DNA of 29,878 nt from the IMG/VR virus record IMGVR_UViG_3300009068_000132, positions 1 to 29,878 of that record; one strand, written 5' to 3'. Origin of the DNA: a virus. The number at the start of each line of letters is the position of its first letter. Positions within the stretch are counted from its first letter, which is position 1. Both the position numbers and the translations under genes were made by a program. The notes beneath the pieces were generated by a model. That model had not been told where the DNA came from, searched no databases, and saw only the letters and a list, made by a program, of their open reading frames with translations. Below are positions 6,702-17,365 of the stretch, piece by piece.

Positions 6702-7621
6702 TGGAGAGCCAAGATGAATCCATTATTGGTTATGGTAATTCTGATGGCTGGGTTGCCCCAGAAGAAGGAGTTGTCGAGGCCTTCAAGGAAACCCTCCAGT
6801 TTCCTGAGTTCTCGGATACTCCGATCTACGGCGCATCGGAGCCACCAGAAACAGTCCTCCTCTTCAAGAGTGTGGAAAAGGTCACTGGAAAGCCCTTGCA
6901 AGCGTTGAACCAAGGTGCGGTTGGCTCTTGCTGTGGTTTCGGTTGGACGAATGCTGCCCAGGTAACCGCTGCTGTGGAGATTGACAATGGCGACAGGGAA
7001 ACTTGGAAAGCTCTTTCACCTAGTTATGTCTATGGCGGCAGCCGTGTACTTATTGGTGGTAATGGTCGCCCTCCCTTTCGTGGTGATGGGTCGAACGCTG
7101 TCTGGTGCGCCAAGTTTTCGCAGCAATTCGGCATCGTATCCGCTGAGGAAGCTGGGGCATACTCGGAAAGTCAAGCAAGACAGTGGGGAGCCGAAGGCCC
7201 TCCCAAGCAACTCCTCGAATCCGGCAAACGGCATCTGATCAAGACGATTACCCAGGTAAAGACTGTGGCTCAGGCCATTGCTGCTTTATCTTCCGGATAT
7301 GCCATCCAGATTGCGTCTAATGCTGGATTCACCCAAGTACGAGACAAGGATGGCTTTTGCCAGCGCAAGGGTGTGTGGAACCATTCCATGGCCTGTATTG
7401 CCTACAAGGATCGAAAAGGTAAAAGGCCTGGTGCCTTGATCGTTAATAGCTGGGGTCCTAACTCAGCCAGCGGTCCTATAGTGGATATGCCTAGCGGAGC
7501 CTGCTTCTGGATCAGCTTCGATGATCTGGAATATATTGTCGGTCAAGGTGATAGTTGGGCATACTCAGCAATTGATGGATTCAAGCAAAACAAGCTTAAT
7601 TATGCTTGTTTAAACTACTAA
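6701..7621 (+). CDS. Papain-like cysteine peptidase (C1 fold)
   Basis: 306 residues, GTG start overlapping the preceding TAG. The papain signature is intact. Q71 is the oxyanion glutamine and C77 the nucleophile in QGAVGSCCGF, with the same Q-to-C spacing as papain's QGxCGSCWAF. H228 lies in VWNHSMACIAY, and N249 with W251 in LIVNSWGP. The usual Trp after the catalytic Cys is replaced by C78. The fold includes the expected L-SPSYVYGGSR and ACFWISFDDLE segments. It should cleave peptide bonds; the target is unknown. There is no export signal, and it sits just upstream of a holin-like gene, so entry functions, virion processing or attack on host cell-surface protein are all possible. Family call is strong, role inferred. 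Confidence 0.85.
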   Translation: MESQDESIIGYGNSDGWVAPEEGVVEAFKETLQFPEFSDTPIYGASEPPETVLLFKSVEKVTGKPLQALNQGAVGSCCGFGWTNAAQVTAAVEIDNGDRETWKALSPSYVYGGSRVLIGGNGRPPFRGDGSNAVWCAKFSQQFGIVSAEEAGAYSESQARQWGAEGPPKQLLESGKRHLIKTITQVKTVAQAIAALSSGYAIQIASNAGFTQVRDKDGFCQRKGVWNHSMACIAYKDRKGKRPGALIVNSWGPNSASGPIVDMPSGACFWISFDDLEYIVGQGDSWAYSAIDGFKQNKLNYACLNY

Positions 7622-16111: not shown

Positions 16112-16342
16112 TTACCACCCTAAGTAACTGGTGCAATCCCTCTTAGTCACATCTATGACAGGTTTTGGAGGCTCAATCTCATTCGCTAAATCGATCAATG
16201 CTCTACCAATCTTCCTAGCTTCCTGTGCAGAAAAATACATGGTAAATCGGCGTTCACAGGGTTCGATTATGATGATTTCGGCATATGCTTCAACACGATC
16301 TGTACAGAGTGTAGTATCCCATTTATCCTTGAAAGTCTGCAT
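16112..16342 (-). CDS. Small unknown protein downstream of the ncRNA terminator
   Basis: 76 residues from ATG 16342, which has GGAG nine bases upstream. A longer in-frame version from GTG 16402 would begin inside a strong terminator hairpin and is rejected. The sequence has a strand pair (VEAYAEIIIIEPCERRFTMY) followed by a helix (SAQEARKIGRALIDLANEIE) and a Pro-rich tail. No family is recognised. Because it lies just past the terminator of the candidate RNA, expression probably needs read-through or a separate start point. Confidence 0.6.
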   Translation of the reverse strand: MQTFKDKWDTTLCTDRVEAYAEIIIIEPCERRFTMYFSAQEARKIGRALIDLANEIEPPKPVIDVTKRDCTSYLGW

Positions 16343-16370
16343 TTCTTTGGACTCCAGTCTAGTTTCCCGA

Positions 16371-16408
16371 AATAATAAAAGCCTGGGCTTGTTTCCAAGC
16401 ACCAGGCT
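16371..16408 (-). terminator. Rho-independent terminator of the candidate RNA
   Basis: On the - strand AGCCTGG pairs with CCAGGCT, a single T is bulged, GCTTG pairs with CAAGC, and the loop is GAAA. The stem (16380-16408) is followed by TTTATTATT. Twelve base pairs plus a U-rich tail make a good intrinsic terminator. It ends the RNA from 16806 and insulates the polymerase/appendage genes from upstream transcription. Confidence 0.75.
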
Positions 16409-16806
16409 CTCATTCTACCGGTCCTACGGTAAGATCATTGCGCTGGGAAGCTGCTGCTTGACGCACTTCGCCTTCAGCAGCAGCATGTGGAGTGACAGGA
16501 AAGTGCTAAAACATCCCCTCCTACCCCAGCGCAAAGAGCCAGCCAACCGAATCGAACGGTTGTACCAAGTGCTGTTCCTACTTGATAGTGTCGAGCCTAC
16601 CCCGAGGTAAACAGCCTCATGCGGGGTGAACTCGCCAACACGCTGGCAATACCTACTCAGTAGTTCACGCTAGTTGATCCTAAAGGATTTAAGCCTGAGT
16701 AGGTAAGTGAAGCAAAGAGGGTGCCATCCTCTATTTTCCCTATGCGCAGGGGTGTCCTAGTGTTAGACGATTGCTTCAGTGTAGACTGGCTTAATTCCAG
16801 TCTACA
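16371..16806 (-). ncRNA. Candidate structured RNA, about 430 nt, no known class
   Basis: No gene is supported in this stretch, the only long gap in the window. Perfect or near-perfect helices (plus coordinates): 16780-16789 with 16797-16806 (10 bp); 16708-16715 with 16771-16778 (8); 16716-16720 with 16728-16732 (5); 16738-16741 with 16748-16751 (4); 16650-16660 with 16695-16705 (11); 16599-16604 with 16622-16627 (6), capped outside by 16592-16595 with 16631-16634; 16545-16549 with 16557-16561 (5); 16440-16447 with 16525-16532 (8) enclosing 16450-16458 with 16476-16484 (9); 16416-16420 with 16427-16431 (5). The 16545-16561 arm read on the - strand has a tRNA-like T-loop, G-TTCGATT-C. The - strand is favoured by that loop, by a wobble pair at 16638/16643, by an extended -10 box at its 5' end and a terminator at its 3' end. 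tmRNA, RNase P and tRNA hallmarks are absent. Confidence 0.6.
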
Positions 16807-16811
16807 TTTTT
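16780..16811 (+). terminator. Hairpin with + strand T-tract (terminator or RNA 5' cap hairpin)
   Basis: TGTAGACTGG (16780-16789) pairs perfectly with CCAGTCTACA (16797-16806) around a 7-nt loop and is followed by TTTTT on the + strand. Read on +, it is a textbook terminator, although no + strand gene is nearby. Read on -, the same stem is the first element of the candidate RNA and could protect its 5' end. It may do both and stop antisense transcripts. Confidence 0.55.
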
Positions 16812-16820
16812 ACTATAGCA
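16812..16820 (-). promoter_or_regulatory. Extended -10 promoter for the candidate RNA
   Basis: The - strand reads TGC-TATAGT (16820-16812), an extended -10 element; no good -35 box lies 17 bp upstream. Transcription would start near 16805, exactly at the base of the first hairpin. It overlaps the end of the upstream gene only by its spacer. Host or phage sigma use is unknown. Confidence 0.4.
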
Positions 16821-16822
16821 TA

Positions 16823-17365
16823 CTAAAAAGGCAATTCTTCGGTTTGTGGAAAACCTTTTTTAGGAGGACTGGTAGGATCCACCGGATCACTAGATGGAGG
16901 CGTTACCCGCATTTTCCTAAGGGAAATCATCCAAGCGTCTTGTTCTGTATTCTTGAAGAACACAATCCTCCCATCGGCTTTCAACGACTGAATGGCTTGG
17001 TTGTACGCATTCCTGGTTTCTACCGTCCTTGTAAACAAATCCTTAAACATCTGATTTCCTGGTACTTGTTCAAGTTGTGCCAGAACATCAGCCTTGGCCT
17101 TAGCCAATACCTCGGGATCCACAGGAGGAGCGTTGTACGATCCACCTCCGCCAGGCTGGTAAGTAGGTTTTGGGCCAAAATACACAAAGTCTTTGCTGTG
17201 AATCTTTCCTTCTTCCTCAATCTTTTTGATGTACCCAAATGGAGATGCCCAGTCTCCAAGTCCAAGAGCATCCTTGATTGCTTTAGCAACCTTAATCTTT
17301 TCCACACCACCTGGTGCAGATTCTGCCATTTTCATTGCAATCGCCCGTGCCTGATCCATCGACAT
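16823..17365 (-). CDS. Winged-helix-like protein with SSB-type acidic C-tail
   Basis: 180 residues, AGGAGG seven bases before ATG 17365. Residues about 1-60 look like a helix-rich, winged-helix-type DNA-binding domain (KVAKAIKDALGLGDWASPFG, YIKKIEEEGKIHSKDF). A Pro/Gly-rich linker (QPGGGGSYNAPP) leads to a second helical part with KADGRIVFF. The protein ends PKKGFPQTEELPF; acidic residues followed by a final Pro-Phe are the hallmark of the tail with which single-strand DNA-binding proteins recruit replication partners. It lies directly downstream of the primase-helicase gene. A replication accessory or ssDNA-binding role is inferred; an OB fold is not visible. Confidence 0.5.
   Translation of the reverse strand: MSMDQARAIAMKMAESAPGGVEKIKVAKAIKDALGLGDWASPFGYIKKIEEEGKIHSKDFVYFGPKPTYQPGGGGSYNAPPVDPEVLAKAKADVLAQLEQVPGNQMFKDLFTRTVETRNAYNQAIQSLKADGRIVFFKNTEQDAWMISLRKMRVTPPSSDPVDPTSPPKKGFPQTEELPF

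Follow-up and report, generated by a model that had tools for sequence, protein, structure and literature searches.

The question raised by this locus is what a virus encodes between two of its replication genes, where no gene is found over some 450 nt. The window, that is, the whole stretch of DNA that was analysed, comprises 29,878 nt (IMG/VR record IMGVR_UViG_3300009068_000132, positions 1 to 29,878). The original prediction placed there a large structured RNA, possibly of a new class, and the gap itself was confirmed. It is flanked by a minus-strand ORF (16823-17365) for which no family was found, directly downstream of a primase/helicase gene, and by a small ORF with its ATG at 16342, beyond which lies a family A DNA polymerase gene. 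The minus strand of the interval folded to -197 kcal/mol, compared with -145 ± 7 kcal/mol for dinucleotide-shuffled controls (z = -7.6, 0/100), and the plus strand gave the same z, so folding alone cannot pick the strand. Among the wobble and near-wobble cells of the core helices described below, G-U exceeded A-C by 13 to 1, and by 8 to 0 in a loop-loop helix aligned in 15 sequences; the RNA strand is therefore the minus strand, as had been predicted and as covariation also indicated. A real structured RNA is encoded on the minus strand, with the following features:

16371-16820, gene-free gap between the minus-strand ORF 16823-17365 and the ORF with its ATG at 16342
16812..16820, minus strand, extended -10 promoter-like element TGCTATAGT, from sequence, without a convincing -35
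16780..16808, minus strand, 5' hairpin UGUAGACUGG-loop-CCAGUCUACA, from fold and sequence
16709..16777, minus strand, T1, a tRNA-like cloverleaf with acceptor GAAGCAA/UUGCUUC and D-, anticodon- and T-type arms
16650..16705, minus strand, H2, a hairpin UACCUACUCAG/CUGAGUAGGUA with invariant GUGAACU at 16668-16662
16538..16647, minus strand, T3, a tRNA-like insert of 110 nt with acceptor-type stem GCCAGC/GCUGGC, long arm, variable arm and T-arm
16440..16532, minus strand, the 93-nt core, a CyVA-1-related RNA of three stems and a loop-loop helix, scoring 112 bits with covariance model R1
16501..16507, minus strand, loop-1 strand AGCACUU of the pseudoknot or kissing helix
16462..16468, minus strand, loop-2 strand AAGUGCG of the same helix
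16415..16432, minus strand, small hairpin UUACCGUAGGACCGGUAG, from fold and sequence
16370..16408, minus strand, intrinsic terminator AGCCUGGUGCUUGGAAACAAGCCCAGGCUUUUAUUAUUU with a GGAAAC loop, from terminator scan and sequence

The terminator was located at the end of the RNA, where it had been predicted. Its stem shows compensatory shortening in the relatives L010, L011 and L016, in which the small hairpin is also retained, and both elements together fold with z = -6.8. The predicted extended -10 is present as well, with an analogous TGGTATGAT at the equivalent position in L010 and L016; however, a scan of the minus strand for two-box sigma-70 promoters found none, so the -10 is the sole basis for the promoter. 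The 5' hairpin is altered yet paired in L011, and another hairpin takes its place in L010 and L016.

Rfam at gathering thresholds and ARAGORN (tRNA and tmRNA) gave no matches in the window. No Rfam model of tmRNA or RNase P and no ARAGORN tmRNA matched the window or the interval, and the covariance models of GOLLD and ROOL had no match at gathering score in the window or at E ≤ 10 in the interval. A blastn search of 50,697 phage records with the interval as query was also negative. A permissive Rfam scan of the interval gave CyVA-1 (RF02965) at 16526-16445 on the minus strand, with 28.6 bits and E 3e-4; matches to a group II intron and IRES_FGF1 in that scan were terminator-like or due to chance. 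The RNA is thus without a family above threshold, but not without a sub-threshold one.

Relatives were collected from IMG/VR by a motif scan with CyVA-1-like loops, which retrieved L001 (identical), L008, L010, L011 and L016, and by protein-based scans, which added L081, L082 and L085; L082 stops before the RNA. Across T1, H2 and the core, the window and L008 share 92% of their letters, whereas identity is 52% for their DNA polymerases, 54% for their primases and 22% for the adjoining upstream proteins, which argues either that the cassette is under strong constraint or that it was recently exchanged. Upstream of the RNA, L010 and L016 are near-identical, yet their T1 and H2 modules differ, and the modules have therefore been exchanged. 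An extra structured stretch lies between the upstream gene and T1 in L085 (~7400-7480), where L081 has an additional tRNA; judged from the sequences of these two phages, the cassette appears to grow on its 5' side.

T1 is related to tRNA, and in some relatives a recognisable tRNA stands in its place. The counterpart in L016 is a tRNA-Glu(UUC) according to ARAGORN, with 40.3 bits for RF00005, and that in L081 scores 36.5 bits, this phage having two tandem tRNA matches above the cut-off. In common with phage tRNA genes, T1 of the window has acceptor, D-type and T-type arms and matches the tRNA-Glu of L016 in position and sequence, but its T-loop, AUGGCAC, is non-canonical, its anticodon-type loop is 6 nt long, and it is accepted by neither ARAGORN nor RF00005. 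The window, L008, L011 and L085 now share the T-loop AUGGCAC and a D-loop without GG, with the arms still paired. Over the cloverleaf arms 94% of the cells are paired (0/500 shuffles); the acceptor stem and the anticodon-type stem both show compensatory changes, the latter varying as CCCCU/AGGGG, AUCCU/AGGGU and CACAC/GUGUG. Separately, Plastid-ycf2 (RF04354) matched the antisense strand of the phage tRNA-Glu (L016:4359-4430, plus strand, E 3e-5); this identity was rejected, and the match suggests that the Rfam family is a tRNA antisense.

The outer stem of H2 is swapped for ACCAGUAC/GUACUGGU in L010 and L081, and pairing is retained. T3 folds with z = -4.25; a long composite arm replaces its D and anticodon arms, and its T-arm is of canonical type (AACCG-UUCGAUU-CGGUU, 16561-16545), being the T-loop-like arm already noticed in the original prediction. 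T3 occurs in the window and L001, only its start in L081, and it is missing from L008, L010, L011, L016 and L085. GUGAACU of H2 is exactly complementary to AGUUCAC of T3 (16632-16626); this complementarity extends to 10 letters in L081 (GGGUGAACUC x GAGUUCACCC), and GUGAACU is retained also in phages without T3. A second AGCACUU, at 16573-16567 in T3, repeats the core's loop-1 strand letter for letter, and T3 could therefore compete for the loop-2 strand. With two tRNA-like modules in the locus and recognisable tRNAs in relatives, the predicted absence of tmRNA and RNase P hallmarks stood, but that of tRNA hallmarks did not.

These modules bear on whether the whole 450-nt interval is one large ornate RNA that folds and oligomerises as a unit, like GOLLD or ROOL, which we regard as improbable. 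Such an RNA would suit the strong fold of the whole interval, the conserved 3' part and variable 5' part, the phage location near tRNAs, the loop-loop pairing and the H2/T3 complementarity. However, T3 is missing from most close relatives, modules are swapped independently (L010 versus L016), at least ten further phage lineages carry the core by itself, and GOLLD and ROOL are unmatched. The likeness to these RNAs lies in being phage-encoded, structured, often near tRNAs, with kissing loops and of unknown function (PMC12286853); the RNA of the window differs in showing no sequence or structure match, in being shorter and modular, and in having as its core a 93-nt unit found elsewhere. What remains of the predicted large RNA of a possibly new class is a real structured RNA with a terminator and helices that covary, assigned to no Rfam family above threshold, but it is a chain of separable modules.

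A search of IMG/VR with the pattern ATGTTTTNNNNNTTTCCTGTCA returned 41 stretches. About half of the distinct loci have a downstream hairpin with a loop complementary to the free letters of loop 1; the other half, without a partner loop, were discarded as chance matches in coding sequence. Retrieval by this pattern fixes the conserved letters by construction and leaves free the stems and the variable loop-loop letters; since five loop-1 letters were N in the pattern, loop-loop covariation was not built in. The loop-loop helix of the 15 aligned phage cores occurs as GCACUU/AAGUGC, AUCAUU/AAGGAU, ACCAUU/AAUGGU, GCCAUU/AAUGGC, GCUGUU/AACAGC, CCGGUU/AACCGG, UCGGUU/AACCGA, ACCGUU/AACGGU and GCCGUU/AACGGC. 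Paired cells amount to 96.2%, and the covariation score is 0.648 versus 0.166 in shuffled alignments (0/500), with slid versions at ≤0.15. In nine type-A cores, double changes were found in 19 of the 29 pairs of all four helices (0/500 shuffles). Dozens of compensatory changes in relatives likewise speak for a real structure. The core thus consists of three stems and a helix of 6-7 bp that joins the two loops, with GGGAUGUUUU, UUUCCUGUCA and GAAG-GAA-CA as invariant single-stranded letters.

The covariance model R1, built from phage cores only, matched 18 phage records, each exactly once, and the core is a free-standing family present once per genome in many unrelated phages. Blastn searches with single cores gave one true match, Tunturi_4, which R1 confirmed; the remaining matches were due to chance. 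The neighbouring genes are unrelated (HNH endonuclease, head-tail connector, dCTP deaminase, RadC, dATP/dGTP hydrolase, helicase and RF-1). The core is found in many phages after a stop codon and ahead of the ribosome-binding site of the following gene, directly upstream of that site in L008, L248, L258, L268 and Tunturi_4. A T-run follows within a few bases of stem P1 in L243, L265, L261, L263, L240 and L008; in L263 both flanking genes run antisense to the core. It lies in frame within an ORF, and is therefore translated as ~31 residues, at L243:1893-1986 (helicase; contig of 51 kb) and L265:915-1008 (contig of 204 kb). The core of these two phages sits in a linker, and the domains downstream differ between them.

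Such contexts were weighed against the possibility that the core is a cis-acting mRNA element (leader, attenuator or processing site) that controls the gene immediately following it. The ribosome-binding site right after the core in the five phages named, and P1 followed by a T-run as a possible attenuator in several, speak for it; even so, we consider it unlikely. The downstream genes are unrelated and each genome holds a single copy, the core is antisense or inside an ORF in the phages described above, and in the window and L085 it is followed by a terminator of its own. Owing to these varied contexts, a separate RNA gene is likelier than the leader of one kind of gene. The predicted regulation of the downstream genes consequently found no support, as the core adjoins unrelated genes, is antisense in one phage and lies within an ORF in two.

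Single copies at arbitrary positions, even in coding sequence, would also fit a structured DNA site, for example for single-strand initiation or recombination. This reading was judged extremely unlikely, because on one strand the wobbles are nearly always G-U rather than A-C, which indicates RNA of that strand, and a terminator or T-run often comes next on that strand. Moreover, Rfam classes the bacterial homologues as sRNA, and halite cyanobacteria were found to contain CyVA-1 RNA (PMC7002113).

Most carriers lack a nearby tRNA (L248, L257, L258, L245, L268, L243 and L261), and in L012 a tRNA-Met lies ~400 nt upstream of a related element. This distribution also bears on a self-cleaving ribozyme that would trim phage tRNA transcripts or mRNAs in the manner of theta ribozymes, the HDV-like phage ribozymes acting at tRNA 3' ends (PMC10879173). 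The core resembles these small, pseudoknotted RNAs linked with phage tRNAs in its size, in its variable stems around invariant unpaired letters, in its pseudoknot and, in the lineage of the window, in its place 3' of tRNAs, for which theta ribozymes provide the phage precedent (PMC10879173). It nevertheless differs in architecture, and neither an HDV-like match nor any other Rfam ribozyme was found in the window or the interval. Theta ribozymes lie within ±5 nt of the tRNA, whereas the core begins ~70-180 nt downstream of T1, well past its 3' end; in L243 and L265, cleavage of the in-ORF core would destroy the mRNA. A ribozyme is accordingly very improbable and, like the DNA site and the single large RNA, was rated below the stable-RNA locus proposed below.

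Tunturi_4 is a cultured phage of Tunturiibacter (host Tunturiibacter empetritectus M8UP27), PP885687 (PMC11924767). Its core, at L290:1483-1569 (~44.3-44.4 kb of PP885687, minus strand of the record), lies directly upstream of a gene for an RF-1-domain protein with a GGQ motif, which is followed by:

L290:1943-2352 (PP885687, Tunturi_4), permuted tmRNA, Rfam match (RF04321, E 4e-15)

The PP885687 record has no RNA feature annotated at this place. The ~560 nt upstream of the core (L290:919-1480) are gene-sparse, with one annotated ORF of 45 codons; they fold modestly above shuffles (z = -2.2) and match no Rfam family.

With respect to CyVA-1, the window, L016 (27.6 bits) and L085 (29.4 bits), at E values from 1.6e-4 to 5e-4, all score below the gathering threshold of 41.4 bits, and by the Rfam cut-off the core is not a member of that family. 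In the reverse search, R1 matched the Rfam-accepted CyVA-1 loci L053 (6.6e-6) and L068 (2.9e-5) and, more weakly, L066, L046 and L071. As the models match reciprocally, the phage core and CyVA-1 families are homologous. The core shows the three-stem architecture, its loops carrying the conserved GUUUU and GAAGGNGAA, and the order of parts is shared: an outer stem, a hairpin in which GUUUU and UUU flank the pairing stretch, and a GAAG..GAA......CA hairpin. A loop-loop helix is likewise common to both, GCCGUU x AACGGC as against GCACUU x AAGUGC in the window. The phages differ in their invariant GGRAUG and UUUCCUGUCA, in a covarying stem P2, and in topology. Their helix between loops 1 and 2, outside the nested Rfam structure, closes a single self-paired module, whereas cyanobacteria have two modules with crosswise loops.

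Of 194 cyanobacterial genomes sampled, 17 contain CyVA-1, mostly as a single copy, and a second, similar module lies downstream of the part covered by Rfam. The crosswise loops pair with 68 Watson-Crick and 5 G-U of 78 cells (A1 x B2) and with 75 and 1 of 78 (A2 x B1), each with 0/2000 shuffles; pairing of the loops within modules (49 + 11 and 50 + 16) showed no strong excess of covariation. The Rfam model therefore spans half of the RNA in these cyanobacterial genomes. Two-module CyVA-1 RNAs of at least ~190 nt with crosswise loops were seen in L278-L289, L046, L040 and L071 (cyanobacteria and a Solibacter bin), and single self-paired modules in phages, one Acidobacteria bin and one Ignavibacteriae bin. 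Six of seven bacterial genomes tested carry a core-type RNA, five of them once and the sixth with an additional weak match close by. Most matches of a GTDB motif scan were chance matches in coding sequence, about six being true CyVA-1. R1 on phylum samples of G019, G025 and G022 (247, 289 and 296 genomes) gave one known locus or none, and absence in the last sample means little, as stricter filters missed the known G022 locus.

The explanation that we propose, and for which we see the arguments as about evenly balanced, is a phage stable-RNA locus in which tRNA-derived and tRNA-like modules accompany a trans-acting, CyVA-1-related core released from a processed precursor. A single minus-strand transcript would run, probably from the -10 at 16820 to the terminator at 16370, through T1 (tRNA-derived), H2, T3 (tRNA-like insert) and the core near its 3' end. 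Host RNase P and 3' nucleases would cut this precursor at the tRNA-like modules and free the core as a stable RNA. Calling T1 and T3 processing marks is guesswork. RNase P usually contacts the canonical T-loop of a tRNA, and T1 has no canonical T-loop, which speaks against processing. The core would then act in trans, serving the phage as a CyVA-1 RNA of its own, most likely by presenting its invariant single-stranded letters to a factor of the host translation machinery. A role in trans, probably at the translation machinery, is proposed from few contexts, because some copies neighbour tRNA, tmRNA or RF-1 and because of the parallel with GOLLD and ROOL, both located close to phage tRNA islands, GOLLD being reported as ribosome-bound in pull-downs (PMC12286853). 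The lack of a neighbouring tRNA in most carriers speaks against this link to translation, and the position ahead of a ribosome-binding site in many phages would suit a cis element as well.

A bolder reading, possible but doubtful, is that the core defines a new and widespread class of trans-acting phage RNA which imitates or replaces host CyVA-1 at the ribosome or a ribosome-rescue factor, in two topologies, self-closed and single in phages, crosswise, domain-swapped and double in cyanobacteria. If true, these topologies would let phage copies pair together or with the host RNA. CyVA-1 has so far been a 77-nt Rfam entry of unknown role, and the family is larger than that. In the window, phage tRNA genes are seen becoming tRNA-like pieces, their stems kept and the working T-loop and anticodon loop lost. 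Unrelated phages each keep one copy of the core, in which sequence and structure are both strongly constrained, and a cultured carrier, Tunturi_4 on Tunturiibacter, makes its function testable.
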